Shown here piece by piece: positions 910 through 20,500 of a stretch of DNA of 26,549 nucleotides. The translations under genes and the position numbers were made by a program. Under the pieces are notes generated by a model. That model did not search any database and had not been told where the DNA came from. It saw only the letters and a program-made list of their open reading frames with translations. Numbering within the stretch: the stretch's first letter is position 1; every line of letters starts with the position of its first letter. This DNA comes from Ectocarpus siliculosus (Eukaryota > Sar > Phaeophyceae > Ectocarpales > Ectocarpaceae). Location of the stretch: assembly GCA_000310025.1 (NCBI GenBank), contig FN648783.1, positions 12,740 through 39,288 of the forward strand, in the 5' to 3' direction.

Positions 910-2017
910 ATGGGAGTCAATTCGCTCTCCCGCTTGTCTAAAAGCGTGGCGTCGGTCAGGATTGATCTTGAAAACGGACAAGGCAAACATCATGTCATCG
1001 TCGACGGCGGGTTCCTAAATCACCGCATGTGTTTGAGGGGGGTAGCGGCGGCAAATTTACTTCTCAACAACGACGTCTCCCGTCAAGTAGAGGAGTGTGC
1101 CCGAGATATGAAGCTCTTTGAAGACCGCAATTTCCTAGTGACGGTAGTGTTCGACGGTCGGCCGCCTCCGGCCAAGAGTGGGACATCTCAACACCGACGA
1201 GAAAGGAGGCAGAAGAGTGCACAACAGGCGCGCGCTCTACACGACGCCGGTGGCTGTCCCGTGGAGATCAACAAGTTGGCCAGCGCTGCTTGTGCTTTCG
1301 ACGGTCGAGTTACCGCTGAGATCGCAACGCGCTTGAGAGCCCGTATCAGGGGGGAGGTTTACATCGCCCCAGGCAAAGCAGATCCACAGCTTGTAGTTTT
1401 CCAGGACATCCATCTCGCAACAGGGGCGAACGTGTACGTGTATGCCAATGACTCCGACTTAACAGTTCTTGGGGTACGGGATCGTTTGGTGGAAGTGGTC
1501 AAGAACGCGAGAGGAGAGCTTGTCGGCAGATCCGTCCGGCAGAGGCTGCTCTTCCAACCCACCGCATGGTCCTTCCTCCGGAGCGGGGATGCTCATGGTT
1601 GGCTGCGCCAGCTGCACGGGATACACCAGCCAGTTGACGAGGGCTTAGACTACACGCCTCTACCGGAACCGACCGGCCGCCGCCGCCTTCTCTTGTTCGC
1701 CGTTATCGTAGGCAACGACTTCGCGAAATTCAAAAATGTCGGACCAGTTACTGCTGCAAGGCTTGCTTTCGTTGACACCGAAAGCGGTGTCTGGGCGGCA
1801 TCTTTGCTGCCATTCGATGCGGTTGTGGGAGACCTGGCCTCAAGGCTGCTGGTGGAGTCCAGGGAGGAGGACACGCCTGCTGCGCGGCGTGAGTTTGAGG
1901 TCCGACTGCGCGCCTGCCACACCATGTTTACACAGCCCGTGGTGTGGAACCCGCTGAGCGGCGAACTCCAACATTTGTCCGGCGCCCCGACCAGGGAGGA
2001 AATCACCCGCCATACAG
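910..2017 (+). CDS. Exon 1: XPG/Rad2-family (EXO1/FEN1-like) 5'-nuclease domain
   Basis: An uninterrupted frame of 369 codons matches the Rad2 family from its first residues. It starts MGVNSL, like the MGI.GL start of EXO1/FEN1, which supports the ATG at 910. Family landmarks in order are VDGG (D32), VVFDG (D82), a basic arch helix with K89 and RRERR at 96-100, APGKAD (153-158), NDSDL (D181, D183), VGND (D270) and a helix-hairpin-helix-like FKNVGPVTAARL (274-285). A C-terminal stretch, VWNPLSGEL, resembles the VFDP segment that follows the EXO1 nuclease core. The family uses these acids to hold two metal ions and cut 5' flaps or recess 5' ends. The glutamate usual in the APxEAD motif is Lys156 here, which should weaken catalysis. 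The exon ends at a strong CAG|GTCAGT donor, and reading on gives only 8 more codons before a stop. Confidence 0.82.
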
Positions 2018-2383
2018 GTCAGTGTTCCGCGTTTTTGTGTGTGTAAGAATGCTCCTCGTACCTAAGACTAGCTTTTGGTTGATGTTTCCCGACGTCACCC
2101 TACTTGTAGTCGGGCGCCAGCAGTGAGACCTTACACACAAGTAAAATGTGTCCTTTACACTGGAGTCTGCGTGCAGCAAGGAGGTCTGATGTACCTTCAA
2201 ACATGCTTTCTACAAAGTAGATTTGCAGGTAAACCCACCAATGACCTCGGTCGGGCTTTGCTCGTCCCGTGATTACACGGCTCCCGCTGTACTGCATACT
2301 GAAGCAGATACATTTAGTGACGGCGTTGCATATACTATCGCCTGAACTCCCTTCACTGTCATGCTCGCATCCTGCACGTACAG

Positions 2384-2693
2384 GGACGTTGGAGCTATCC
2401 CCGCTGGCGTCCCGTGTGGCCCGGGGAGATGTCTGTCCGCTGACCGGGCGCGAATGGGACCCACCGCTGGGTACAGCACCAACGAAGGGGCAGGCGGTAG
2501 GCGAGGATGCTGGCAGGCAGAAGAAAGGGCAACACTCGAGACGGCTAGCACTCGCCCCCCGAATGCTAGCAGCAGGGCGTCTCGCGCTCGAGGTCCTCAA
2601 GACACAAACAACTACCGCGAGCACGGCTTCAGCAGACTCCCGGGGGAGACTGAAGATTACACCAAGTGGACCGTGCCTAAGCTTCGCGAGTTT
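2384..2693 (+). CDS. Exon 2: linker and start of SAP-like motif
   Basis: The acceptor gtacag at 2378-2383 restores the exon 1 frame. It gives a segment containing VARGDVCPLTGREWDPP, then a basic Ala/Leu-rich linker. The downstream half reads sensibly only in a second frame, ending YTKWTVPKLREF, which resembles the first helix of a SAP DNA-binding motif. One base must be gained or lost between about 2590 and 2650; a GGGGG run at 2641-2645 is a likely place. The exon ends at TTT|GTAAGC. Confidence 0.45.
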
Positions 2694-2889
2694 GTAAGCG
2701 TGAGTAAAAGATGAGTTTTTAGCGACATTTTTTATAGAGAGCTACTGTCAGTAGGTTACTAGTCGGGGAGGGTAGTTACAGTTATGGCTGTGACAGAATA
2801 TTTGGTCCATAGACTATTACTACTTCAAAATATATTTTGGGTAAAGAGTGCATCCTGTGTTGTAAACTTGGCGCTTCGTCATATTTCAG

Positions 2890-2937
2890 ACTGCCGTTAC
2901 TGGCTTCCGGGTGCGCCTGTCGACCATCCAGCAGCAG
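2890..2937 (+). CDS. Exon 3: middle of SAP-like motif
   Basis: A 48-base, phase-0 micro-exon lies between the acceptor atatttcag and the donor CAG|GTTGAG. It encodes TAVTGFRVRLSTIQQQ. Joined to the exon 2 end and to the VYRCLDNAG at the start of exon 4, this gives a helix-turn-helix of SAP length. The assignment rests on pattern and phase only. The GTTGAG donor is weak. Confidence 0.4.
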
Positions 2938-3549
2938 GTTGAGCGATGTACGCACACACGCTTACAAAAGAGACCACACACCACGTTCCGCTTTGCACAC
3001 AGCGCACTGCGGCTGCTGTTAATAAGGTTCGGGGCGGATATCCCGATTGGTTTAAGAAGTACTGTATTTGAAATGGCCCCAAAATGGTACCCCACAAGTT
3101 ATCACGAGTTGTGCGATTTTGGACTGTAGTTAAATTGTTCGCGTACGGTGGGCCACGCTTAGAGCAGATTAAGTACACCATTGGCGCCGGATATGTGCAA
3201 TTCAGCCCCCCTCGCAGTCTGTTTACGGTAATGGTCACGTTGACCACAAGGTAGATATTGATGTGCGTCAACCACTTCGTTACAGCAGTCGTTCGAACAC
3301 GGGATTATTGTGCGTAGGGTAACAACGAACCTAGAAGTTTTGGTTTCTTCGCGCTCTGTTCGAGGCAGCGGTGGGGTACGAGATGCACGGGGCAACTGCA
3401 CGTGGAGATTGCAAATTGTAACCGAAGATATACATTGTTCTTCGCCTAAGATAAGCGGGTGGGTTTCGGTGTGCGTCATCAGCTAAGCGTGAACGTATAT
3501 GCGCCCCACACGGTTGGGATTCTCCTCTTGTGTGCATTTCTGCCGTCAG

Positions 3550-3955
3550 GTTTATAGGTGTCTCGACAACGCCGGGACCAGTGGGTTCAACAAAGCACTC
3601 CTTGCTCAGATGGCTGGGGATGTGGTCAGGGTGATTAGGAGCTGCGGTGTGTTGGACACCAACTTGGCGTTTCGCCATCCCGTTCCGGACCTCAGCTCTT
3701 TTGAGGAAGAGGAGGCCAGGCTAATGCCGGATCTTCCTGCGACAGGGCTGCGCATAAAGGTGTGGTCCGCTATGCGGCGGTATCTCCCCGAGATATCGAA
3801 AGCCGTCATCTTACGGTTCATGGGAGAAGTGAACAAACTCGCCGGCGAGGGCTCGCGGCTCTGGTATAGATCGCTGCAGCGGTGTTGGACATGGGGAACC
3901 TCAGCAGGTTTTGGGCCGTTCCGGCAGCGGGGGGCATTATGTGGATTGGGACTAG
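3550..3955 (+). CDS. Exon 4: unassigned middle region
   Basis: The acceptor gccgtcag puts VYRCLDNAG in phase with exon 3. About 100 codons follow in this frame, including an acidic FEEEEARL and a helical LPEISKAVILRFMGEVNKL. From about 3867 a different frame looks better (VLDMGNLSRFWAVPAAGG), and its end is in phase with exon 5 through TAG|GTGAGG. A frame change near 3840-3870 is therefore proposed. I recognise no domain. Confidence 0.4.
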
Positions 3956-4495
3956 GTGAGGCGCACGATATGCACCCCGCCTGGAAGGAGGATAGGCATA
4001 TACTGCTTCGCGTTGCCGTCATATTGTTTCCGGTGTGTGTTCTAACGTTGTTATGTTTTGATGTTCGGAATACTTAGATGGAGTATGCTTGATCTAGTCC
4101 CGACGTACGATTCGACGGTGACAGCGCAGCATATTGCCACCCGGGCCTGTGTGCATCATGTGCACACGTACTTTACGTTGCATTCATGCTTTTCTGCCTT
4201 GACCATGTTTACAACCGTGTAGATGTTCCCGTCGGAATGACGCTGATGCCAGCATCGTACACAAAACAAGTTACCCTCTACGATACTCGAGGGACAGACC
4301 CGGTCCCCCACGTGTTCTTGCCTTGTTTTCCCGCACGTCATGACGGTGCGGTACGCTGCATTTCGTTGACTTTGTTTTCGATCGCTGCCTGCTCCGTCAG
4401 CAACGTTGTAGTGGAGATTAAAAACTCGAAAATGAAAGACTGCGCCTAACAACCTTCCCATCCCGATGAAATAATCTCCAACTGATAACACACAG

Positions 4496-5194
4496 CGCGG
4501 GCGCCTCCTTCTCGGCCGACAAGGAGTACCGCGTCCGCATCAAACTACGAGTGGAAGAAGTCGATGAGAACGCACACCCGACGGAGCAAGAGGAGAAGGA
4601 GGGGGAGGAAGAGGAGGAGGTCGTGGGCAATGACACGTGTCGGCGCAAACCCTGGTAGCCCTGGAGGTCATCGCGGCTCTCTGCGAATGTCCTGCAGGCA
4701 TTAAGGGGGGGTGCTCCCACGCCGCCATGGCGCTGTTTTTAGGTAGACTGCTCCAGATGTCTGAAGAACAGCTAGCCACGTTCAATCCTACCACGTGTAC
4801 GGAAATGGCATGCCGCTGGATAATGCAGCATGGCAAGGGTTCTCGATCAGCCAAACAGTGCGAGCTATACGGAATGAGTATGTCGGTAGGAACCACGGTC
4901 GTCCGGAGTGTTCGGGACCCGAAAGGGAATGTAGGATGGGACGACGACAAAAAAGTCCACGCGAGTGTGGTTCCACCCATAGATCGAATGAACCAATTCA
5001 ACCAGCATCCTACCGGGTGAATGTGGGCCGCACGCAAAGTGCACTTCGATGCTGGCGAGGACATCAGCAAACTCAAGAGGGACAAATTAATGGCATTCGT
5101 AAATCACGAGAGGCGATCGGACCACCAAGAGGTGTGCCTGGATTATCTACCGCCAAGAGTACGCGAAGAAAACAATTCTGCACACTCTGCGTAG
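4496..5194 (+). CDS. Exon 5: acidic linker and SWIM zinc finger
   Basis: After the acceptor cacacag the frame gives KEYRVRIKLRVEE and then a Glu-rich tract (about 4563-4620). The frame then shifts by one near 4634-4656. The new frame carries the SWIM pattern C-x-C-x7-C-x-H: the Cys codons start at 4682, 4688 and 4712 and the His codon at 4718, within ALCECPAG...GGCSHAAMAL. Downstream, TTCTEMACRW resembles a CT-x3-C-x-W segment that I recall following SWIM domains in some animal transposon-type proteins. A TGA at 5018 interrupts the frame, yet the same frame stays open past it (GEDISKLKRDKLMAF, CLDYLPPRVREENN) to a TAG at 5192. This suggests a recent nonsense change, or an unseen intron. SWIM domains bind zinc and mediate DNA or protein contacts in MULE-type and related transposon proteins. 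Confidence 0.6.
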
Positions 5195-5379
5195 CCACAT
5201 TGAAAAGTGCTTGCGTGTGCATTCGTGAAGTGATTCTGTGTGTGTGGCGGGGGGGGGGTCGTGGGTTGCTGTAATTGTCACGACCCAAGCTGGGGCGTGT
5301 TTCTCTCTTGCCCGGAGGGGAACTTGGTGGAGGAATGCGGTACAAGAGGAGGAAGGGCACCCGTGGCCACTCAGCTACC
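5195..5379. other. Non-coding spacer with G run
   Basis: Short spacer between the damaged nuclease gene and the diverged repeats. It contains a G run at about 5249-5258. No feature is recognised. Confidence 0.4.
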
Positions 5380-5584
5380 CTGACAGGGCCATGAACTAAA
5401 CAAGGTGAACACGTGGACCCTCGCAAGGTGCTAGGCCTTGCTGGGGTTACCCCTCGTGATCCTGCTACACACCCATCACCCTGTACGGGGTATCTCGTGG
5501 GACCTTGTCAGGGGGACGGTTGCTACAAGGCTATGTATGTGTTAAGCCTTGGAAAGGTGAAGGGTTCGTACAGGGTTGAAAAGG

Positions 5585-5675
5585 GGGACCTTTTGTGCTA
5601 TCTCCCCCCCCTCTACGGTGGGTTTTCGTCGCTTGGCAACGACGTTGTAAAACAAGCCAATTCACTTCGTGAACT
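5585..5675. repeat. C-run-linked block shared with 16090-16176
   Basis: After a C run the sequence reads ggttttcgtcgcttggcaac and onward to aagccaattcacttc. The reverse complement of 16091-16134 is nearly the same, also next to a long C run. Translated, both give GFSSLGND followed by two hydrophobic residues and KQANSL. Confidence 0.6.
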
Positions 5676-6624
5676 CGGCAACCAGGTTACCGGTTTTTGT
5701 TTTTACCTCGTTTTTGTTTTTGGCGGTAATGGTGGTCGAGTAGATCATGTTGTGCGGGGTCGAGAACCCTCACTCCGCGCAACGGGGGATGATCGCACCA
5801 CGTTGTGTTAAAATGGTCAAGCATCCTCGAGGCAGTTGCACAGTGCTTACAACTGTCTCTGGAAGTGAAAGCACCAGAAAATAAATTAAGTCATACGTAG
5901 CTGTCATCCGTACGCAAGGAAGTAAGCACAAGATGCCGAACACCCTTAGCAGGATGCAGCTCACCCTTCATGCGACTCGCCAAATACCTCACGGCGCTTC
6001 GCGCTTGGTGATGTGAGAGCCTGGTCCGGTGAGAACCCGGCGTGCTCCGTCCCGGCTTTGTAGGGATGCGAGGTCAATGGTCAAACGACTACGGCATGCA
6101 CGACTATGAGTATGAGTACACCCCCCTCTACGGTGTCGAGGGGCGTCGCCCTGATGTCATGTTCGGCCTTGGAAAGGTGATGAAGGGTTACTGCAGGGTT
6201 GAAAATGGAGACCTTCGGAGCTATCCCCCCCCCCCTTTGCGGTTTTTAGGGGCGGGCGTCGCCCTGCCATCCAATGTTGGGACCCTGGGAGGATAGCAGG
6301 TCTTCCGAGGGACAAGGAGGCATCATATCACACAGGCATGTTGTGCGGGCCCCTAGTTCAAGGTAAATAGCTCTAACCCTAACCCAAACTGATCATTGTG
6401 CTCTCAAACAATAGTCGTCACGCGCATGTGGGCTCTATTATTTGACACGTCTCCAGTTTGCGTTATGACGTCCTGTTCCTATTCACAAAGTCACTCTGCA
6501 CAAAGTACGTTTATCATGGTCATACTCCGTAGGTTTTATGATGCATGGCATATTGAAAAAAAAACAGTGGTCGGGCGCGAGGGAGTACCGCGATCGACGA
6601 TGCTGTACGCGGGGAGGAGATGAA

Positions 6625-6660
6625 CTTTCCCGTGAAAACTTCGAGGGGTGATCACGCCGG
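6625..6660 (+). repeat. Short dispersed repeat, copy 1
   Basis: Starts tttcccgtgaaaacttcg and continues with a near-identical ggggt.atca. It recurs at 8034-8070, both copies on the plus strand, so it is probably a fragment of a dispersed element. Confidence 0.55.
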
Positions 6661-7320
6661 GGGGAACAGAATAGTAAGGCTTGTTTCGAGTTACCTTGGG
6701 GGCCCCTTGGCTGAGGGGTCAACCCTGTAGGCACCCTGTAGGGGGGCTGTAGAGGGTGGCTACTGTAGTGGTTACAAGGTCTGGGAGAGGACCCTGATAA
6801 GGTGCTCTTTTCCTTGGGGGGGTCGAAGGTCATGACCTTGTACAGGCCGACACCCTGAACTGTGTTGTCAGCGTTGCCAGGGTCATGGTGTAAACAAAGT
6901 GAAAACGCGGGCCCTGGCAAGGTGCTAGGGTTAGGGTAAACCCCATACCGACTTGTTGCACATAGCCCACCCTGTACGGTGTAGAGGACGCGGCCTTGTC
7001 AGGGATAGGGCTAGTACAGGGTGTGAGGGAAGAACCTGGCAAAGGTGTTGCTTCTTGGGGAGGTCGAAGGTTATGACCTTGTGCAGGCCGATAACCTGAT
7101 CAGTGTTGTCGGACATGCCCTGCCAGGGTCATGGCGTAAACAAGGTGAAAAAGTGGGCCCGGGCAAGGTGTAAGACCTTGCAGGGGTTACCCCATGCGAA
7201 CATGCCCTGTGTGGTGTATATATAGGGCGGGGCCTTGTCAGATGAAGACTACCCACAAAGTGTATGTTGGGACCCTTGGAGGATAGCAGGCCTTGCAAGG
7301 GGCAAAGAGGTAGCAAGTCA

Positions 7321-8370
7321 GCTTAGCGTGACCCGTTTGCTTCAAGGAGAGAGGTCAGTGTGGTGCTTGTTGGCATTACGTTTGAGTCGCCGCATGGACT
7401 GTGTGACACCAGACACGTCACGAACCGTCCTCTTCATCGGCAGAACCAGGTCAACATAAATGAACCGTCGGCAAAGGCCCCCGTCATCATGTTTCCGTGT
7501 CCTCCGTCTCGTTTTCTAGCACCATTATTGTGTTGCTAACGATAATAACAATAAAAGAAGACGAGACGGGTCTCTCTAATGTCGGGTTTCCCGAAATGTG
7601 CTCATAAAGCTCGCCACGATTCAATTGAACGTGTTTCATACGGAGTTGTTACTACAACCCAGAGTCGTGCTTCGTTCTCCCAAACTTGGTCGACACCGAC
7701 GACGCAGAGCTCACATCGACGAAATAATCCCTACACTACGAGAGGTGCTCCGGGATCGTGCATATCCACCCCGTCAAACACGCGTCGCATGCATGTAGAC
7801 AAGAAGCGAGACCCCCGCCCCCCCTTGTCAATGTACTTCGCTGTCATTTAATAGCTCCCTCGCTCACGCATGACACCCCGCCACGACTTGGTTTTGTTGT
7901 CCTCATCTCCAAACAACGATATCCGTCCAGCACGCGCGAATGTCTCTGTTGTCAATGAGACGACCGAGAGAGAGAGAGGTAGCGACGGCGGGAAGCGGCG
8001 GGAGAGACAGCGGCAGAGGACTGAGCTTGTTTCTTTCCCGTGAAAACTTCGGGGGGTAATCATATCCCGGGGGGGCAAAGAGCAATATATTGACATACAT
8101 TCACACGCTGCCGTGTCCCCCCTATGGACAAGATATATGCGAGTAAGCATCGAGGAGGAAGGGAAGGAGGGTAGCACGTGCGGAGCCCTAACCCCTTCCG
8201 GTTACAAACACACAACCGTCTTCTAGAGAGTACCCCCTGACGCCGTTCGAGTTGAGAGTGGTGTCTGCAACCACAAAGCATAACTGCTACGAGAACGGGT
8301 GAACGCTTGAGGTTGTGCGCTACACCTGACTACAGCAATACAGTACAACGATGAGACGTAGCGGGAGTGC
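7321..8370. other. No recognisable gene; small inverted repeat at 7504-7569
   Basis: Open frames are short, on both strands and without known motifs. Arms at 7504-7516 (ccgtctcgttttc) and 7557-7569 (gaagacgagacgg) pair at 12 of 13 positions around an AT-rich 40-base loop containing AATAAA. The short dispersed repeat of 6625 recurs at 8034-8070. Confidence 0.45.
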
Positions 8371-8405
8371 GTGGGGCAGCGACCATACTCAACATCGGTG
8401 CCTAA

Positions 8406-8684
8406 CTCATCAGGGACTGGCACAGGAAGGAGAGCGAGCCAGACGACGCAAGCGACATCTCCAGCGACAACGATTCGTCGGTGTTGCCTTCAGAAAACGT
8501 TGACAGTTTTTCGCCGAAATTGGGAAGGACATTATTGTGGGGGGAGGGGGGGATATGGGTACCACCGTCGATCTGTACTCCGAAGTATCTATGCATACAA
8601 TATACAAGAAGCCAACAGACCAGAATGTAGAAGAGTACAAGAGCTCGACGTCAGGGCAAGGTGATGAACGTTTTGAGGTTCAGT
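8406..8684 (+). CDS. Possible coding fragments, acidic
   Basis: Two neighbouring frames look protein-like. From 8406 one reads SEPDDASDISSDNDSSVL, acidic and serine-rich. From 8504 another reads FAEIGKDIIVGGGGDMGTT and ends at a TAG at 8682-8684. They could be joined by a single indel in the G-rich run at about 8538-8552, or by the acceptor-like gttgacag at 8499-8506. No family is recognised, and the fragments may be chance open sequence. Confidence 0.2.
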
Positions 8685-8988
8685 AGTCAACATTGCGATA
8701 CATCGAGCGTGAGAACCGAAAGCATAATAGACCTCCCCCACCTTCCGACACTGCAGGTGGATGAACGTATGTCTTGGAAAACGCTGTGACGGTGCCCTCC
8801 AGTTTGTGTCACGACGCATCAAGGGCGCAGATGGCAGTGTGGAAGCTTTGGATGCTTGCAGTAAAGCATGACGGCCCGTTGTGGCTACATCCCGCCTCGG
8901 ACAACCACCACCTGCTGGTGACCGAAACACAGCCAAAACGCCTTCTGGACTGCGCAATGTCTAACGTTAAATATTCACTTGGTTCTTT

Positions 8989-9807
8989 GTGACAATTTGC
9001 GGTGGTGGAAAACGCGATGTGGACAAAAATGCCATAACCCAAAGTAAAGAGTTCACGACCCTTGATCTCCTTCCTCCCACGAACCATCCAGGGCTTGCAC
9101 CGAAGCTGTGGCGATGCACCCCTTTTCAAGCTCATGCAAAAGCTACCAGTGCAGAAACACCCCCCCCCTCGTATGACGCCCCCGACGAAGCCACGGTATC
9201 TCTTGTTTCCTTCTTTGCTGAGCTCAAGTGGTCCATGCCCAACCCACAGACAAGCCCATCAGGTACGGTTGGATCCCCTGCCACATCCTCGACCGTTGTG
9301 AACGGGCGCATAGAGATACTCCGAAAGAAGCAGTATTATTGTTTTTTTGGCCTGTCGGGTGCGACGTATGAAGCACCATGCGCAAGGGCGTGCGGCGGGA
9401 TAGGTAGGTGTGGTTGCGGTGCTTCTTGTACCATTATCATGATGCATATCGATATGCACAGCAGGGGTGCGAAGTTCTGGCGCGAAGCGGCGCAATTATT
9501 GTGGGCGACCGGGCCATGTACATACCCCTTCATCGAATTCCGATCAGTTGAGCCCCGGCCCGTTGGCATCCGTTGGCATCTCGGGTGCGGAACCCAACAG
9601 CCAGCCCAAGGCACACCACTACTATGCAACACACACGCACGACCAACAATGCCAAGCCCATGGAGATGCCATGGTCAGCTCCTTCAGCTTGGGCTACAAA
9701 CATGGGCGCACCAGCTTGCGCTATATTGTAATAGCGCGCTTGTCTCGATCCACGGAGAACTGGGCGGCACGACGATCTCCTCCTTCAACTCGAGATTGCA
9801 CATGTAG
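8989..9807 (+). CDS. 272-codon open frame, unrecognised
   Basis: This is one of the longest uninterrupted frames in the middle region. It is Pro/Ala/Thr-rich in its first third and Cys-rich in the middle (APCARACGG.GRCGCGASC), with no motif I can name. GT dinucleotides such as the one after AGCCCATCAG (9257-9267) could be donors. Length alone is weak evidence in sequence of this GC content. Overlapping minus-strand frames are also open. Confidence 0.22.
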   Translation: MTICGGGKRDVDKNAITQSKEFTTLDLLPPTNHPGLAPKLWRCTPFQAHAKATSAETPPPSYDAPDEATVSLVSFFAELKWSMPNPQTSPSGTVGSPATSSTVVNGRIEILRKKQYYCFFGLSGATYEAPCARACGGIGRCGCGASCTIIMMHIDMHSRGAKFWREAAQLLWATGPCTYPFIEFRSVEPRPVGIRWHLGCGTQQPAQGTPLLCNTHARPTMPSPWRCHGQLLQLGLQTWAHQLALYCNSALVSIHGELGGTTISSFNSRLHM

Positions 9808-10991
9808 TGGCGAGCACCGGGAGAGCGCTCTCAAGACGCGAGCCTTCTGAAGATGGTAAGTGCTATAGGGTTTGTCGAGATCCCGACATCGAGGCAACGC
9901 TGCTTGGCATTATTTCGTGTGCAGCACAGCAGCAGCGGTGCAGATAAATTTCTCCCTACAGCTTGTACAATTACCAGAGCTGGTGCTGGTCGCGAGCACA
10001 CCTACAGCTGCAGCACCTACCGAGGCAGGGAAGCAAGTGTGCTATATCAGTACTGCATTGGTGCTACTAGCGTTGTGTGACTCCATCGCACCTTGCATCG
10101 TCCGTAGCACCTATCTGCCGCTCTCCCGACGACAACAGCACAAGCAGTAGAAAAAACCAAACGGCCACCCGAGTCTGTGCTGTGTACTTGAGTATACCAC
10201 ACCAACAATTCTCCGGGACCCCCTCTTTCGTTGTTCGTTTTTTTGTTGTTTGCATGAGTCGACCCCATGCCCTTAGCCAACCCTGACACTCATTGCATAA
10301 ACCTCGACCTGTAGTGTAACCCGCGAGATGCCTCGAGACAGTAGTAATTTTATGTCTCCACTATTTTAATAGCTGTGATATGCCGTGACGTTGGATCAAG
10401 CTGTGCCACGAACTGAATGAATCATTTTTTCTGTATTGCTCCCTAGCCCTCTCTGCGTACTCTCGGGAGGCAAACTACGCTTAGCTGTCAGACCCCCCTA
10501 AATTTTCCCGAATTGCCTGGCCGTCACCCTTGTGATAAAAGAGAACGCAATAGAGTTGAAAACCACATGGCAATTGTCTTATCGGCACTACTACATGCAT
10601 GAATGAATTTACGCATGTTCAAATAATGGTCATGTGGTCGGCCAAGGGTCGGCCTCCAAAAATCGTCATAACGTACTCGTTCCAGATATGTACAATATCT
10701 CCGAACAACCCCGAAACCGATAATATATCCACCTCCAACACGTTAGATCAACGCGGCTACCTCCGAACGTATCGTCAGAGAGAGGATTTGGCGATTTGAC
10801 CAACTTTTCGGTCCTACATGTCGTTTCACCATCTTGTTTCACCTTTCGCAGCTTGCTGCACTCCACATGTTTTTTTTTCCATGATGATGTTTGTCCTCTA
10901 ACGTCTTTCAGTTTCACTTCATAACATGCTGTCTTACAACATCTCCCTGATGTCCCTTCCTCGGTTATTTTGCCCACAATGTGCATCACAG
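9808..10991. other. No recognisable gene
   Basis: Only short frames and low-complexity runs are seen: Ala/Thr-coding triplets near 9910-10040 and a T run at 10870-10878. No repeat family from elsewhere in the window is evident. Confidence 0.4.
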
Positions 10992-11205
10992 ATCAAGGCC
11001 GCCTTCGCCACTTCTCGTCGGCGGCGGCAGCTCATCATCGGTCGTGGCGATTCTCCGGGAGAGGCGCAGTTCAGGGGGGCAGGGCAACCGGAGGCGCGGT
11101 ACGAGGCTTTACGGCTGGAGCTTCGCCATCATCGAACCTCAAGAACACGAGTGCGCACGAGCACGTTCTGGGAGCCCGCGGATCTCGGCTACGAGGCCTT
11201 CATGA
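10992..11205 (+). CDS. Possible internal exon, unrecognised
   Basis: A 214-base GC-rich stretch lies between an acceptor-like catcacag and a strong donor, atga|GTAAGTG. All three plus-strand frames are open over it, so the frame is uncertain. One gives a basic segment ending FWEPADLGYEAFM. It could be an upstream exon of the gene proposed at 12182-14042, but no connecting exon with matching phase was found. Confidence 0.27.
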
Positions 11206-12181
11206 GTAAGTGTTGTCCTTGGTTTGTTTCTGTCTTCGTGGCGTACCAGAAAACCGTGACGGTGTACGTAATTTCTAATCCTTGACGGGGCAGCTGCGGT
11301 GATCGTGTCCTCTCTCTCCAACAGAATTACGGTAGCTTGTGCAGCTTCGTCTGTTCAGTGCGTAGTTGAGTTTGGACATACAGCAGTGTTGATCGGGCGT
11401 CGCACACCATATTGTAGAAAATGCGTGGTGTTTTGCGTTGGAATCGGGCGAACGACCTGTCTCATTGGCCGTCTGCACCATCGCTTCCCGAACGCGTGCG
11501 GACAGGCTGATTGCTCTTGGTCTGCCTTGGAGAGTGATTACTTTTTCTTTATCGCTGCAGTGATACTGTACTCATGAAACGCACGTTCCCGCCACGTACA
11601 TCGATCCGTCTGTTCGCAAGATATCGATGTATATACCTAGGTTTTCAATGGTTCCTTCGTTGAGACTAAATATCTCATCCTCTATGTGTACCTGAACGTC
11701 CGTTCGAATCGTCGTTTAGACTATTCGTTTTCTCGCCGCTCAAAACACAGAATTATTTCGCGCACCACTGCAATCTTCGCGTGCCCAGTTGCACAAGGCC
11801 GTCGGGCTGCCGTGGTCGAGTTCGTGTTCAAGAAGCCTGCGTACGGACTGATGAGGGTCGTGGCCGCGGGCTGATGGCGTAAGATACCGAGACTCTCACG
11901 TAGTGCGACGTATTTCATGTACTGTAGTGCCCAAGCGGAGGGAGCATGGGTGGGTCCTGTCGCGCGTTGGGTATCGTACACGAGACAGAGCAGCACGAGC
12001 ACCAACAACTAGTTAGCAGCAACCACACCTGGATTGTGCAGTTTTGTGGGGGTGGACGAGAGGTCGTCAGCCTGCGGAGAGGGGAAGCTCATGCGTATCT
12101 ACCCAAGTGAAATGTGACGTTGCCCCCTATTGAGCAACCTGCTCCCGTCGATCCTCTCGTCTCGTTTGCTCCCGCACACAG
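11206..12181. other. Probably intronic or intergenic
   Basis: There is a pyrimidine-rich acceptor-like site at 11308-11324 (ctctctctccaacag). A short frame at 11788-11872 encodes GRRAAVVEFVFKKPAYGLM before a stop. Neither could be tied into a gene. Confidence 0.3.
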
Positions 12182-14042
12182 GACATGATGGGGTTTGTCG
12201 GCTGTACGCTCGAGCTGCACCTTGAGGTCCACGGTTCGGGAGGCTGGGGTGCCCTGGACCCGTCTGGCACTTGGAGGGTCTGGGGGGGGCATGAGACCCT
12301 TGTTCATCTGAGTGCGGCTGGCGTGACCACGGTAAGCCTGCCACGAGGTAGGCCTGCATAGAGGCTGAGATCCGCTTTTTCTCTTGAGCAATTCAGGCGG
12401 TCCTAGATTTAACTGGATGGCGAATACCGGGAAACTCGGTGCCGAACCCCCATTTCAGTAATATTATCACTTTGACGTCATTTTGTGCACCAAAACTCGA
12501 GGTTGGACCTCGACCTGACCTTGAGTTTACTTAGCTGTCGCTCCGTGCCACCTTGAGTTCCTTTTCGAGAGCTAGTTATGTGTACAATAAAGGGATGGGC
12601 GAGGGGAGATGCATGCCACGATTCGCGACTTCGTGGAAGGCAAATTTACTATGTTCGCTTCGGTGGCAGTCTTGACTGTATCCTTGGTGCATGGGTTGAT
12701 AGCGTGCCATCGTGAATCAGGCTAGCGTTCTAGCTCAAAAGTTTCACGATAAACTTACGTCTAAGAAATAGACTATAGAACAATTTTCGGCACGTCCACG
12801 ACGTTGCCCGCCGATATGCATGCACAGTGATTTCGTTCGCGTAAGGCGCATCTTGATGTATATCACGCATCCATTGACCACGGGGTTGGCGGAATACTCT
12901 CCCCTAAAACCTTAAAGAAACTCCTGGTTGTCAAGACACACGAACAAAACGAAAACGAGGTGTGTCTTCAGTGCGAACGCTACGGCTGTATGCTTCAGCG
13001 CGCTTTGAAACATGTTGTCGGGCGTGGTCCTTTTTTTTACGTGCATCTCCAATCTAAGCAAGCCCTCTCATGCGCACGCCTTGTTCTCCTTATGCGAGAT
13101 GATACGTCCGCACTTTCTCCGGAGCAGCTTATGTTTTTAGGATCCATGCAGACGATTGCGCAGCTCTCGCGAGATTCTACGACACCCCATAAACTAGTCC
13201 TTCCAACAATCAATATTATTACACACATCTTATCCCTAACCACTTGTTCCGCCGGCCTTTTCGTCGTGGCACCTCCTTTTCACTTGCCCGCCGCAACCCC
13301 TCTCAAAACTCAACAGGTTGTTCCAGCACTTCTTCGTACGAGTGACTTGAGAGAACCACACGTTGCAGCCCTGCCTCTCGACTTTGACGCGGAGGCGTTT
13401 GGCAAGATTGGCATCTCACCCAGTACGCGTGCCCCTACCTGTCCAAGCGAGGTACGTTTTCGAAATCCAAATGTTGTGCGGTGCATGTAAGCCTGGGTGC
13501 CACTTATCTGTTGGGCATGTCCGGGCTTCGCCTGTGTGGGATTGGTATGCATATCTGATGAGAAGTTTGTCGCCGTGCTCGCCACCACAGAGCATTATTG
13601 GGGATTTTTGAATTACAGTCTAGCAAACACTCGCACTATTTTTTTCATGGTGTACATAGACTATGCAGCGGTCACATAATCTATTTTGGGTTTTGTCGTC
13701 GCAATCGCTTTCATGTCTATACCCACGCTACCCATGAATACCCTGCAGGCACCCCACCTGGACCCTCACTCAGTGGTTTCCAATGCCGTCGTTGACCTTA
13801 CTTTGATCAGCTGCACATCCGCTCACATTCCAATTTTATCTGTTTCTCTATTCGGTTCTCACCATCTGATTTCCTCAAACTTGCACATATGCCCGCTTTT
13901 GTGGCAGCCCCTTGCACGGGCGGCCGGTTCGGAGATGGCGCGGTGGCAATGGCTGTCGAGGTTGTCATGCCCTGATCTCGCTTCGCTGCCGGTATCATCA
14001 GGCGCGGGTATTCATGAATTATGTGTTTCCTTCCTGTTTTAA
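12182..14042 (+). CDS. Candidate uncharacterised multi-exon gene (3 exons seen)
   Basis: Three exons fit together in phase 0. 12182-12331 lies between cgcacacag and ACG|GTAAGC and is open in only one frame (GFVGCTLELHLEVHGSGG). 12972-13451 lies between gtgtcttcag and GAG|GTACGT and has 160 codons, including FYVHLQSKQALSC and MRDDTSALSPEQLMFLG. 13749-14042 follows taccctgcag (VVDLTLISCTSAHIPILSV) and ends at a TAA at 14040. Introns are 640 and 297 bp. No family, signal peptide or clear membrane segment is recognised, and the 5' end is not found. The match of splice sites, phase and open length is the only evidence. The last exon may end earlier, because another frame near 13891-13970 also looks coding. 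Confidence 0.38.
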
Positions 14043-14890
14043 CGCATCATGGGTGATAGGGCAGCGGTGTGATGGTGTAGCTTCGCGTGTTTAAGAAGGT
14101 GGTAAGGTACTACAGGAGCAATGAGACTGCGCGTGCCGCCGGATTATAGTATTTAATAGAAATTTTATCTTTGGTCGCTCCGCCATTATTTTGAATCTTC
14201 GGTGAGATACACACATCAGTGTGTACAGAGATGTGTATTGATATTCTGTACACGTTCGCAGAATATATCCAAATTTATTCCATCATGGTTGTTTTGTTTT
14301 TTTTCGTACACCCTGTGGTAATAGTCAGGCGCGGTTGTCGCCTGTAGTTCAGGCAGCCATTGGTGTGGTGGTCTCGCGTGTTGTTTGGCTGATGTCTTAA
14401 ACTCCATCACACATGCATACAGCAGAGAGAGAGACCGCGCGCGCCGCCTGATGGTACTGTTGTAGTCATATTTAGTGAGACTTTTTTTTGTTCCTGTTTT
14501 CTTTCTGATGTGGCGCAGCGTGATGGTGCCCATCATGGACTCTGTGTGTGGGAGCCTGTGACATTCGCGGGGTGAGTCTTGAGCCCAATTTGCTGAGGTC
14601 ATATCCGTTCGTTCATGTCTTTGAAGGATTATGTAGGCCCGTTCTGTCTCTACGCCTCCTTGGGTATTTTTCTATGCTCGACTTCGCTCTACGCGAGGGG
14701 AGGGAGACCAACGTATGCGCGTTGTTCTCATGTTGTAGCTCCGCGAGAGGGGCGGGTGAGGAGTACGTTGCGCTTTCGCCTCTGCGTTTTTGTACGATGG
14801 ACGATTTCAGAGGCCGACATGTGTGACTTGTCGATTGTCGGCCGCACGATCTGCGATACAACATGAAAAGAACTTTATGAGCAACGTCAT
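14043..14890. other. No recognisable gene
   Basis: AT-richer DNA with short frames of up to 128 codons on the minus strand and no known motif. No repeat is shared with the rest of the window as far as I can see by eye. Confidence 0.4.
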
Positions 14891-14919
14891 GCTCGAATCC
14901 CTAGTGAGGGCGTCGGCCT

Positions 14920-15168
14920 AGAAAAAGTTGCTTACCCCACCCTTGGGCCAACGTCGCTGTGCGTGCGTTGGCAGGGTCTGGGCATATAGTAGTACAGACG
15001 CGACGTTGGCATGCAGATAACCAAGCCTAAGGTCGCTGTGCCTAGGTAACCATGGTCTGGACCTAGGCCAAGGTTCCTTGTATGCCGAATCCTACCCAGT
15101 TTCGGACTGTGTCCAGGTTACCATTGACATACGTTGGCAGGGTCTGGAACTAGGCCAAGGTGCCTTTC
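14920..15168 (+). repeat. Diverged satellite related to the 88-bp array
   Basis: Words such as cgttggcagggtctgg, ctaggccaaggt and tgtccaggttacc recur with variable spacing and lead into the regular array. This looks like older or edge units of the same satellite. Confidence 0.55.
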
Positions 15169-15520
15169 GTGCCGAACCCTGCCCAGGTACTTGACCTTGG
15201 CCAGGTTACCTAACCCTAGTCATGTGATAATGGGGGGCATCCCCAAAAAGTCGTTGGTGCCGAACCCTGCGCAGGTACTTGACCTTGCCCAGGTTACCTA
15301 ACCCTAGTCATGTGATAATGGGGGGCGTCCCCAAAAAGTCGTTAGTGCCGAACCCTGCCCAGGTACTTGACCTTCCCACGGTTACCTAACCCTAGTCATG
15401 TGATAATGGGGGGCGTCCCCAAAAAGTCGTTAGTGCCGAACCCTGCCCAGGTACTTGACCTTGCCCAGGTTACCTAACCCTAGTCATGTGATAATGGGGG
15501 GCGTCCTCAAAAAGTCGACC
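15169..15520 (+). repeat. 88-bp tandem satellite, 4 units
   Basis: Units start with gtgccgaaccctg at 15169, 15257, 15345 and 15433, a period of exactly 88 bp. They differ at only a few positions. Each carries acctaaccctag (telomere-like), catgtgataatggggggc and ccaaaaagtcg. The last unit runs into a C run and then a G run bordering the assembly gap, so the array may be longer than shown. Confidence 0.95.
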
Positions 15521-15570
15521 CCCCCCCCAACCCTGTGGCTGAGCCGAATGGCCACGGGTGGGGGGCGGAA

Positions 15571-16176
15571 GGGGGGGGGGGGGGGGGGGGGGGGGGGTTA
15601 GTAAAGCNNNNNNNNNNNNNNNNNNNNNNNNNNNNNNNNNNNNNNNNNNNNNNNNNNNNNNNNNNNNNNNNNNNNNNNNNNNNNNNNNNNNNNNNNNNNN
15701 NNNNNNNNNNNNNNNNNNNNNNNNNNNNNNNNNNNNNNNNNNNNNNNNNNNNNNNNNNNNNNNNNNNNNNNNNNNNNNNNNNNNNNNNNNNNNNNNNNNN
15801 NNNNNNNNNNNNNNNNNNNNNNNNNNNNNNNNNNNNNNNNNNNNNNNNNNNNNNNNNNNNNNNNNNNNNNNNNNNNNNNNNNNNNNNNNNNNNNNNNNNN
15901 NNNNNNNNNNNNNNNNNNNNNNNNNNNNNNNNNNNNNNNNNNNNNNNNNNNNNNNNNNNNNNNNNNNNNNNNNNNNNNNNNNNNNNNNNNNNNNNNNNNN
16001 NNNNNNNNNNNNNNNNNNNNNNNNNNNNNNNNNNNNNNNNNNNNNNNNNNNNNNNNNNNNNNNNNNNNNNNNNNNNNNNNNNNNNNNNNAGGAAGTGAAT
16101 TGGCTTGTTTTAAAAGGTCGTTGCCAAGGGAGGAAAACCCAATCCGGAGGGCAAACACCGGGGGGGGGGGGGGGGT
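15571..16176. other. Assembly gap (N) bordered by G runs
   Basis: Ns fill 15608-16089. A G run of about 28 bases lies just left (15570-15597) and a second G run lies right (about 16160-16176). Protein frames spanning the Ns are meaningless. The 482-base size may be an estimate. Confidence 0.95.
16090..16176 (-). repeat. Second copy of the C-run-linked block
   Basis: Read on the minus strand this is a C run, about 19 bases, then gggttttcctcccttggcaa and on to aagccaattcacttcc at the gap edge. It matches 5620-5665 at nearly every position, and the encoded GFSSLGND...KQANSL is kept although four or more bases differ. Confidence 0.6.
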
Positions 16177-16855: not shown

Positions 16856-17751
16856 TTACTTATCGCTCTTGAACGGCTGCTGAATCATGTTTACTAAAGC
16901 TGCAACCACATGGAAGCACATCTCCAAGTGATCGAGTTGCTTATGGTTGAATTTCTTGTCGACGATGCTCCACTTCTTCATGGCCCCGATTGCCCGCTCT
17001 ACATGAATGCGCAAAATTCGCTACCTCCCAGTTGGATTCCATGTCGGCTTCAGTGAACTGCTTCTCCTTCTGCCGCTTGTAAGGGGGCGCCACGTACAGG
17101 AAACCTTCCTCGATCAACAACGGCGACACCGAATTGAACCCCTTGTCCGCCATGACCATGAGGCCTTCGTGATCAAGGCCATTGTCCCTCATGGCGTCGA
17201 CAAGACCAGACGCCTTTACAACCTCAACATCGGACATCCTACCGGGATACGCGGGCCCAATGTAACAAATCGCACCCCCAGGGGTGACCGCGACAAGTAA
17301 TTTCGCCGTCTGTCTGCCCTTGTACGTGGAATATGTGATCCAGTTCCAGTCAGTTTGCCAAGACCTGCAAATTTCTATCTCAGTGGCGTCCAGAACTAGA
17401 ACACACTTTGCATACCCATAATCGACAAAGTTCTGCGGGACGAACTCATCCACCTCTGCTAAAGTAGGAAGCCGAACCAAAGGCCGAAGACTACGCCAAA
17501 GGGAAGTTTAACCATGTCGTGAACGCCCTCCCCCCGGTAGTCTCGTGGACACCAAACAGGGCCGATGCCACCACAATCGGCGTTGCGGTGCGCAGGACCA
17601 TCAACGTGAAAAAAAGTCCGTTCACTCCCCGAAATATCTTTCGCCTCTGCTCAACCCTTGTCCCGTCTGCTGTTATCCCGCCTCCCTCTCGCTGGTCATA
17701 GAACACCATATTCTCCGCCTGACCCTCAGCATCCAGGAACTCGTACAACTT
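16856..17751 (-). CDS. Exon 2: HTH_Tnp_4 and DDE_Tnp_4 nuclease (frameshifted)
   Basis: After gcctgcag the frame runs KLYEFLDAEGQ, then FFTLMVLRT...ALFGVHETTG.AFTTWLNF, the helix-turn-helix seen upstream of DDE_Tnp_4. A one-base shift near 17499 leads to LPTLAEVDEFVP, VLDATEIEI (first catalytic Asp), YSTYKGRQTAKLLVAVTP, YPGRMSDVEVV and MADKGF (second Asp). A second shift near 17014 leads to RIHVERAIGAMKKW, with the catalytic Glu, and a C-terminus ending FKSDK with TAA at 16858-16856. All three DDE residues are present across the frames, and both lesions sit in short A runs. Confidence 0.85.
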
Positions 17752-18264
17752 CTGCAGGCGGTGGCACGTGGGGTGATGACGAAGATGCGACGAAGGTTGC
17801 ATTGCGGATATCAGCACATGAAAACTATTTGCATGACTCGGGTGACAGTAGATATCACATGAAATATTATGACTGCATCCGACTGGCGCGGAGTCTTCGT
17901 GACCTTTCGTTGCCGTTAAACAAAACACGAACCCTCCACTTTCCCAACAGAAGAGCAGCAACAGCAGCAGTCACCCTATAGAGGCGAAAAACAACAAGGG
18001 TCGATCCGAACTCTGCTAGATTGGTAGCGAATTCAATACAATGGAAGGAACTTACATACCGCACTGCCGCGCTATCTCATGCTTGACAAGAAGTATGTCA
18101 CTATGGCCTTTTATGTCAAGAACAACGATGTACGCGCTGCTGTATGCATGACAATGTATGCATTCTTCAGCAGCGGTCAATGGAGCATATACTTATTTTG
18201 CAACTGCTGCTGTGTCGGCGGCATGCAGTAATGTGGCGTGCTCGTCGCTTACGGAACTGGCCGG

Positions 18265-18593: not shown

Positions 18594-19373
18594 CTCGAGA
18601 GACTCATGGTCGCTGAGACCGACAAGGGAGCGAACTCCCACAGGCTGCAAAGAACGCAGTAAGTTGTGGTCGATCCCAATCACACCAGGGGCTGTTCCTG
18701 CCGCTTCCTTTGCACTCCTCTCGTTCTGCTTCGCTTCCTTAAGCTCCGCCTTCAGCACCGAGATGCGTAGCCTAACCTTCCTCGCCTCGCCATTGAGTCG
18801 TCGCTGTTCCTCGTTGTCATCCAGCAATGCTGCCCTGTATCTTGTCACCAGAGCATCGGACTTCCGACTCTTTGCAAGGGCACCCCTCGAAGCATTGAAC
18901 ATTTCGTCGCTTGACTGATCTGGCAGAGCTCCATCTTTAACCCTTACACCCAACGTACTACCATCCACCGAGTTGATAGTGTTCTCGGCTTCTAGGCTCC
19001 CAGGTGGGAAGTGAGCAGCGGAAATCCTTGCGTCGCGTACTGGCCTCGGGAGGTCGCTCCGGCCGAAAAGGGCGTGGCACCAGCTTGCTCTCTTCCCAGG
19101 GTCAATCGGCATCCGTATGGTTGCGTGTCCGCCGTGTACTCGGCAAAATTCAGTATCACAGACGCACTTGTGGTTCCCGATCGGGGTGTCGGTCGCAGCA
19201 ATCGAGTCGGATGTGAAGGCGATACCGGAGAATACCGGAGAGAGTGGGTGTAGATTGCTGCCTTGGTGCTGTTGTTGCTGTCGCTGTGGCTTGTTGTGGC
19301 TTGTGTTTTTTGTTTTTTGTTTGAAAGGGCGGAATGCGTTGTGGGTGTTCTTCAAGCCAGGCGTATCAATCAT
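18594..19373 (-). CDS. Exon 1: THAP-like zinc finger and coiled coil
   Basis: The zinc-finger pattern runs from about 19166 to 18921. It has CVCDTEFC (C-x4-C as the first pair), a conserved MP...W (IRMPIDPGKRASW), then RISAAHFPPG, where THAP domains have a C-x2-H, and a later KDGALP like the terminal AVPT box. The spacing between the second Cys and the third-ligand site is 40 residues, inside the family range. The third ligand is Ser instead of Cys. A helical, charged segment (ARKVRLRISVLKAELKEAKQ, about 18803-18744) looks like the coiled coil that often follows THAP domains and helps pair subunits. The exon ends at SLE|GTAAGTG in phase 0. Confidence 0.62.
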
Positions 19374-19609
19374 CTCGTGGCTGTGGTTGTGTGCACTCCC
19401 TTGGCACAGAAAGTGTGTGTGTAACCCGTGTCCAGCGCTGTAACAACGTTGTGAGGCCTGTGCATCCGAGGGCGGTGCTAGGATGATGAGCCCACCACAA
19501 CGAGAACCTGGGGGCAAATGTGTCTTGAAAATAGACTGGGAATCGGCCTGACCCCCCCCCCTCCCACACAGCCACTTTTGGGAATTTGGCGGCCCAATTG
19601 CAGGAAGCC
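19374..19609. other. 5' flank of the transposase gene
   Basis: Open in the transposase frame but low in similarity to any domain. A run of nine C lies at about 19551-19561. It may be 5' untranslated sequence or the element end before repeat copy A. Confidence 0.35.
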
Positions 19610-20500
19610 TATGAAAACGGCCGGTTGAACAGCGAAAGAGGGTCCTGCGTGCTGCGCGCCACACGCAAGTGTTTTTTTGCGTTTGTTCTTGAGTGACCAT
19701 GGTAGTACACATGCGGCTGCTGCTGCGGTTTCTGCTGTCGGGATGTGCTGCAATGGTCGTACGGTTATCGTAGTCAGGTTTGACAACAGTCTACTCGTTC
19801 GTATAGCGGTAGCGGTGCGCATCTATCGCGACGGCAAGCGCATTGAGATAATAGTTCGTCCGTCGTGCTTCTAGTCTACACCACTACACAGACAGATAGT
19901 CGTGTTCTTCTTTGTTGCCGCTTCATACCAGAAAAGAAAGAAAGTCTCCACCAACTTACAGTATCTCCACAGCAGTTCGGAAACGACGACTATTTTTCCT
20001 TTGTCGTGTTTGTTGTTGCTGAGCGCACATCGGATGTCGCCGCTCGTTACACGTGTTCAAGCCTGCGGTGGAACAGAGGGATGAGAGTGAGCGTCTTCTC
20101 GACGAGAGTTCATGCCTTGTCTTCTCGAGTCTCTCTTCCTTTAGTCTACCTCTCTCTCTCTCTGTTGCATTTTCGCCGTTAGGGTCCCCAATAACATCAA
20201 ACGTCAACGGGAATCGTTTTGCGTCTTGCTGAGTAGGAGGCTGCCCGTGTACCCGGCTGCTGCATGTGAGGCAATGGGCGCCGCCTCTTTCCGTCAAGCA
20301 ATACGCATGGCCCCTACGGTTCGCCGCACATGCAGTGCTTGCTGTGTGACAGCTTCCAGCGGTTCAGAGCGTCGACGGTGTTTTTTGCCTGTAGAGCCCC
20401 AGAACAACGCGAACCCCCCGGCTGTTTCATTGTTTTTGGGTCCCCCACTCGCCCACCCATCCATGAACTTCAGCAGTTTTCGGTGGGGGGATGATTTTCT
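19610..20500 (-). repeat. Dispersed repeat, copy A (inverted)
   Basis: Read in reverse complement it follows copy B in the same order. 20340-20480 matches 22850-22690, 20165-20275 matches 23020-22925, 20020-20120 matches 23210-23090, 19815-19870 matches 23370-23320 and 19615-19740 matches 23870-23725. It lacks roughly the stretch corresponding to 23400-23690 of copy B. No coding function is recognised. Confidence 0.75.

Follow-up and report, generated by a model that had tools for sequence, protein, structure and literature searches.

An ISL2EU-like DNA transposon of Ectocarpus siliculosus with a predicted EXO1-type nuclease in the place of YqaJ

DNA transposons of the ISL2EU type (PHIS superfamily) encode a second protein with a YqaJ exonuclease domain (Han et al. 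2015, PMC4482050). They average ca. 4.8 kb in length and have been reported from animals only (PMC4482050). The stretch of DNA analysed here, below called the window, comprises 26,549 nucleotides of Ectocarpus siliculosus, positions 12740–39288 of contig C239 in a genome of 189 Mb and 492 contigs. This genome gave 87 matches to the light-harvesting family PF00504 and so belongs to a photosynthetic organism. It holds the remnant of a DNA transposon, and the finding rests on the family of relatives that this copy has in its own genome, which are named by contig (C13, C15, C53 and so on). With ISL2EU the element shares a 2-bp AT target-site duplication, a transposase with helix-turn-helix (HTH) and DDE domains, and a nuclease as the second gene; the start of the transposase is THAP-like, but only below the profile cut-off. 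It differs in its terminal inverted repeats (TIRs), which start with AGG and not GG, in its length of 12–15 kb, in its algal host and in having a Rad2 nuclease of the EXO1 type instead of YqaJ. The apparent novelty is this last point, an EXO1-type nuclease taking the place of YqaJ in an otherwise known kind of transposon.

YqaJ nucleases, which are of the lambda-exonuclease type, and EXO1 have a common 5'-to-3' polarity but different folds, and some transposon YqaJ proteins also bear SWIM. The nuclease of AcademX transposons is of the Rad2/XPG type; we know of no SWIM in AcademX, nor of a SWIM exon in cellular EXO1. According to the available part of the AcademX account (PMC10045372), these elements encode a nuclease and thus resemble the present one as DNA transposons with an accessory nuclease, but their transposase belongs to another superfamily and their duplications are 3–4 bp long. 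In the Kolobok lineages D, E and P the accessory nucleases differ by lineage, being DnaQ-like, lambda-exonuclease-like and of the His-Me finger type; the transposase is of another family than here, and no Rad2/XPG nuclease is named in the available part of that paper (PMC9587614). The Harbinger/Pangu elements of Ectocarpus likewise have two tail-to-tail genes and a brown-algal host, but their duplications are ANT or TNA, and the words exonuclease, XPG, THAP, YqaJ and ISL2EU are absent from the main text (PMC12477816). Among the best matches in the open PubMed Central literature, in the parts available and with Repbase Reports lying outside it, no paper was found that describes a PHIS element carrying a nuclease of the XPG/EXO1 kind.

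The nuclease gene of the window (910–5194) is predicted to be one spliced gene with four well-supported exons and one doubtful exon. Exon ends, frameshifts and subfamily groups were here and below read partly by eye.

910–2017, forward strand: exon 1, EXO1-type Rad2 nuclease of 369 amino acids (XPG_N match, profile and structure matches to EXO1, donor CAG/GTCAGT)
2384–2699, forward strand: exon 2, linker and first helix of the SAP-like segment, frameshifted (conserved block, splice sites, selection)
2890–2937, forward strand: 48-nucleotide exon 3 of the first-pass annotation, doubtful (not found by eye in four relatives)
3550–3955, forward strand: exon 4, conserved region, frameshifted (conserved block, selection, splice sites)
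4496–5194, forward strand: exon 5, with the C-x-C-x7-C-x-H motif followed by the C-terminal tail as far as the stop; a frameshift and an internal stop (ligand conservation)

Exon 1 of the window matched the Pfam family XPG_N with 28.8 bits (cut-off 22), which bears out the Rad2-family landmarks that a first-pass annotation had read in 910–2017, from Met-Gly through the helix-hairpin-helix. In the C390 relative XPG_N was slightly under the cut-off (21.9 bits), and XPG_I passed its cut-off in C187. When a profile of ten copies was compared with PDB, human EXO1 was the best match (E 3.2e-15); the next different protein was an XPG/FEN1 construct (8e-7), and FEN1 followed from 2e-6. The predicted structure of the C390 nuclease (mean pLDDT 72.7, pTM 0.72) gave EXO1 at all of ranks 1–15 in the structure search (best 5.4e-13) and FEN1 later (4.5e-8). 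The identity in the fold match to EXO1 was ca. 20%, and the structures matched included EXO1 bound to 5'-flap DNA. The seven metal-binding acids of EXO1, numbered from the profile alignment to EXO1 together with general knowledge of EXO1, were kept in four of the five open copies checked, the exception being the window copy, whose EADxQ motif has Lys where the catalytic Glu should stand. By profile and modelled structure the transposon nuclease is a putative member of the EXO1 branch of the Rad2/XPG family, with EXO1 a closer match than either FEN1 or XPG, and it resembles cellular EXO1 in its nuclease core, its catalytic acids and its best sequence and structure match.

A FEN1-type identity was rejected, as both FEN1 and XPG were far behind EXO1 by sequence and structure; the archaeal FEN1 model of NCBIfam reached 4.8e-6, far under its cut-off. 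A match of Pfam REV to exon 1, below cut-off, was read as a chance likeness of an Arg-rich stretch. Recent capture of the EXO1 of the host was set aside, since an EXO1-like gene of the host's own lies on C2 (EXO1 as its best match in PDB, 2.4e-18 and 1.1e-16) and the transposon nuclease is far diverged. For a viral source, IMG/VR was scanned once with the nuclease of C390, and none of the 28 pattern matches was a relative.

Exons 1, 2, 4 and 5 were found in the same order and on the same strand in the relatives of subfamily 2, with ca. 45–70% identity per block in a translated comparison covering four relatives in full and a fifth, C13, in part, together with C13 against C15. All four exons are open in C131 and C53. 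The exon order also holds in the distant copies C261, C187 and C94, although none of the three is intact. Of six splice sites sought in 11 copies, all are present in the five copies belonging to subfamily 1. The six copies of subfamily 2 showed two exceptions: C390 has lost the AG before exon 2, and in C407 no acceptor of exon 4 was located. Read by eye, the subfamily-2 acceptor of exon 5 is CAG/CGC. Of the junctions proposed in the first-pass annotation (2017/2384, 2693/2890, 2937/3550 and 3955/4496), those bounding exons 1, 2, 4 and 5 agree with the relatives except for the donor at 2693, the conserved donor of exon 2 being the GTGAGT after 2699. The 48-nucleotide exon at 2890–2937 was not found by eye in C53, C261, C94 or C187, and it is doubtful because in these four relatives exon 2 can be joined directly to exon 4 in phase 0.

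The nonsynonymous and synonymous divergences (dN and dS) between C131 and C53, which represent different subfamilies, were 0.43 and 2.0 in exon 1 (dN/dS 0.22), 0.48 and 2.72 in exon 2 (0.18) and 0.35 and 1.2 in exon 4 (0.29), the figures being rough since the dS values are near saturation. In exon 5 dN was 0.29 with dS saturated, and in the transposase the values were 0.24 and 2.1. A wrong-frame control, made for exon 1 only, gave 0.62/0.67 = 0.93. The comparison shows what is apparently purifying selection on exons 1, 2, 4 and 5.

The C-x-C-x7-C-x-H motif of exon 5 lies within an open frame at 4634–5017 of the window. A search independent of the motif found the SWIM exon in 16 of the 18 copies in hand, and the four ligands C, C, C and H were all kept in 15 of these 16; in the SWIM exon of C178 Arg replaces the ligand His. 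The ligands were also invariant in nine of nine alignment rows, the rows having been chosen by that motif. No Pfam model matched the motif, the NCBIfam scan of exon 5 found nothing, and neither did the exon-5 profile against PDB (best E 1.5). The SWIM finger proposed in the first-pass annotation is therefore upheld as a motif with conserved ligands and not as a domain recognised by Pfam. For the SAP-like motif proposed between the two other parts, the profile reached E 0.07–0.19 and covered the first helix only, which does not establish the motif. The claim that nuclease, SAP-like and SWIM parts belong to one gene is thus supported for the nuclease and the SWIM-type motif, with SAP not established. 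Exon 4 matched no Pfam family.

Counted by contig, all counts being lower bounds, the nuclease exon was present on 17, the SWIM exon on 18 and the transposase on 19 contigs, 22 contigs having at least one of the parts. All three were present on 14 contigs, falling into four subfamilies when grouped by eye, and in all 14 the nuclease and transposase genes are convergent. The nuclease was found without the transposase on C376 (with a contig end nearby), C372 and C4, the last two also being without the SWIM exon. The transposase was found without the nuclease on C114, C454, C12, C223 and C200, and the SWIM exon occurs on the last three of these. On C223 the copy is truncated by the end of the contig, C200 has no nuclease match in ca. 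5.4 kb upstream, and on C12 the SWIM exon and the transposase lie on one strand. The comparison of the copies showed the predicted EXO1-type nuclease with its SWIM-type motif and the transposase to be a conserved pair, kept together by selection.

Three features to the right of the nuclease gene connect it with a transposon.

16859–17970, reverse strand: broken transposase region of the DDE_Tnp_4 family, convergent with the nuclease gene (position calculated from C239 coordinates; family assigned in the open relative C131)
18993–19178, reverse strand: THAP-like N-terminal segment of the transposase gene (found by sequence)
19337–19610, reverse strand: right TIR, ending in ..GAAGCCT and followed by AT at 19611–19612 (same right terminus as in the relatives)

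In the relatives C131 and C390, DDE_Tnp_4 was matched with 1.1e-32 and 1.9e-32 and HTH_Tnp_4 with 29.8 and 37.3 bits (cut-off 27), respectively. The DDE positions are kept in four of five alignment rows, and the fifth row loses its frame ahead of the last position.

The search for the element-end sequence gave 13 matches in the genome and none with the reversed control. Four elements bounded by TIRs hold the nuclease gene: C13 (14,285 bp), C53 (15,197 bp, including 1,880 N), C390 (12,199 bp) and C15 (14,664 bp, including 100 N), the last belonging to the subfamily of the window; these lengths were measured from GG to CC and are 2 bp short of the AGG..CCT ends. Their inverted repeats extend over 312 (C13), 316 (C53), 314 (C390) and 403 (C15) alignment columns with 90–98% identity. 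Exon 1 is frameshifted in the C15 and C13 elements, so not all four have an open nuclease gene. From C131 only the right end was found. The first-pass suggestion of a Rad2 nuclease as a mobile-element accessory protein in the position of YqaJ was supported by the location of the gene inside a transposon with long TIRs, an AT duplication and a convergent DDE_Tnp_4 transposase. The same TIR occurs at C15:3154200, C26:6307912, C166:69599, C186:22366, C33:293793 and C178:21188. The ends on C33 and C178 adjoin nuclease copies, and the other four may belong to non-autonomous relatives.

Empty sites were searched for with the joined flanks of the four elements; 40 of 596 candidates were scored and three sites fetched. 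All 40 scored candidates fell in the C390 part, 30 of them covering the full joined stretch, one nearly all of it and nine the junction and the right side; among these 40 of 596 no match was present for the other three insertions. The three fetched sites show a single AT, the empty site reading GATGAGA-AT-ACTCC, and the filled site of C390 has AT on either side, which fixes the target-site duplication as AT and the element ends as AGG..CCT. A TA duplication with a TIR starting GG was possible from the ends alone and was ruled out by the empty site, and the element ends do not agree with the 3-bp ANT duplication of Pangu. C-AT-G was seen at three of the four two-ended elements (C13, C53 and C15; loci L015, L021 and L025), with C390 lying in A-AT-A, and these flanks possibly reflect a target preference.

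The preferred reading, with a rough probability of 0.6, is that an ISL2EU-like DNA transposon of the PHIS superfamily has the nuclease-SWIM gene as its second gene and that the product of this gene resects the donor ends. Resection in the 5'-to-3' direction after excision was inferred from YqaJ and EXO1 types being alike in polarity and not in fold. In the proposed mechanism the transposase would cut the element out, and the SWIM and helical parts would hold the nuclease at the element ends or on the transposase. At the broken ends of the donor the nuclease would then degrade the 5' strand; alternatively it would trim 5' flaps where the element has newly inserted. The 3' overhangs left by resection would lead to recombination repair with the sister chromatid, by which the element would be restored at its old site and the copy number would rise. 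In animal ISL2EU this task would fall to the YqaJ protein, an unrelated enzyme of equal polarity. That one position is filled by two nucleases which are unrelated but probably alike in polarity would single out a step open to testing, the resection or trimming of the 5' strand.

A more tentative proposal, put at somewhat less than even odds, is that the lineage swapped a lambda-exonuclease-type nuclease for an EXO1-type nuclease of unrelated fold and kept the SWIM-bearing frame. If this is true, 5'-to-3' end resection would be the purpose of the long-unexplained second protein of ISL2EU. The results also suggest an algal relative of the ISL2EU type, which was reported only from animals, and would add a case to the accessory-nuclease exchange known from Kolobok, as described in the available part of PMC9587614. 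The sole YqaJ match found in the Ectocarpus genome (G000:C16:4387488-4387868; L034) also fits a viral alkaline exonuclease model and adjoins an open reading frame of a DEAD/ResIII helicase, and the locus looks like a stretch of an endogenous virus, probably an algal one, which would suit a brown-algal host.

Several results weigh against the preferred reading. The THAP match was below its cut-off of 23.9 bits in C390 (17.0 bits, E 0.01) and C13 (17.4 bits, E 0.008), no THAP match was found in C53 or the window copy, and the third zinc ligand of the THAP-like start, a Cys, reads Ser. The TIRs start with AGG against the usual GG of ISL2EU, and the A before and T after the AT of ISL2EU are not kept, the flanking bases varying among the ends. 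The SWIM assignment is a motif call, and the fold model of exon 5 was unusable (pLDDT 40). Selection was weaker in the more distant, broken copies (dN/dS 0.71/1.39 in exon 4 and 0.65/2.61 in exon 5). The comparison with ISL2EU was made by its published description. As the AT duplication, HTH and DDE agree with ISL2EU but YqaJ is replaced and THAP stays sub-threshold, the element is called ISL2EU-like and is not filed as a member. The same features bear on the possibility that an independent PHIS lineage, a sister group to ISL2EU that never had YqaJ, recruited the EXO1-type nuclease and gained the SWIM-like motif separately. The atypical THAP, sub-threshold or unmatched, the AGG start and the length of 12–15 kb against ca. 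4.8 kb in the animal-only ISL2EU (PMC4482050) would suit such a lineage, but the AT duplication, the HTH and DDE transposase with its THAP-like start and the nuclease as second protein all fit ISL2EU, and an independent origin is considered unlikely.

The nearest mechanistic rival to donor-end resection is that the nuclease works at the junctions of the new insertion, where it would trim 5' flaps or gaps. EXO1 and FEN1 are known as families to cut 5' flaps, and the structure matches to flap-bound EXO1 agree with this; nucleases of the lambda-exonuclease type, however, are generally known to act 5'-to-3' on duplex ends, making resection the activity common to both types, and flap trimming was judged rather doubtful as the sole role. 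That the gene is passenger cargo or serves against host defence, with no role in transposition, is improbable: large Ectocarpus transposons do carry accessory genes, mostly of unknown function according to the available part of PMC12477816, and the elements contain a further Cys-rich coding region, but the pairing of nuclease and transposase on 14 contigs over four subfamilies is unlike ordinary cargo. Least credible by far is a nuclease gene adjoining a separate SWIM gene. The frame of the window copy is broken and the single-gene structure is predicted from sequence, which leaves room for two genes, but the splice sites are conserved, past the donor of exon 1 the open frame is not the same in the different subfamilies, and exons 2, 4 and 5 are without a conserved start Met (by eye).

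The window copy itself, compared by eye with open relatives, is shifted in frame in exons 2 and 4 and again close to the beginning of exon 5, which is also interrupted by a stop. Because of these, joining its exons at the junctions of the first-pass annotation gives 8 internal stops. In addition to the broken transposase and the one lost catalytic acid, it contains ca. 10.8 kb of extra sequence.

5358–16159, no strand: extra sequence of ca. 10.8 kb, absent from the C15 relative (poly-G borders, N gap at 15608–16089)

This sequence is either a nested insertion or an assembly artefact. At ca. 5380–7300, diverged minisatellite-like repeats around CCCTGACAGGG and GGGTCATGG were seen by eye. The 12,739 bases of the contig to the left of the window are N, and the left end of the element lies outside the window. 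In the left arms of the C13 and C15 elements, a further coding region, first Cys-rich and then coiled, precedes the nuclease gene on its left side in both subfamilies, the similarity being judged by eye. The region is at L020:663-1307, L025:2022-2504 and L025:3394-4044. No Pfam family matched it above cut-off.

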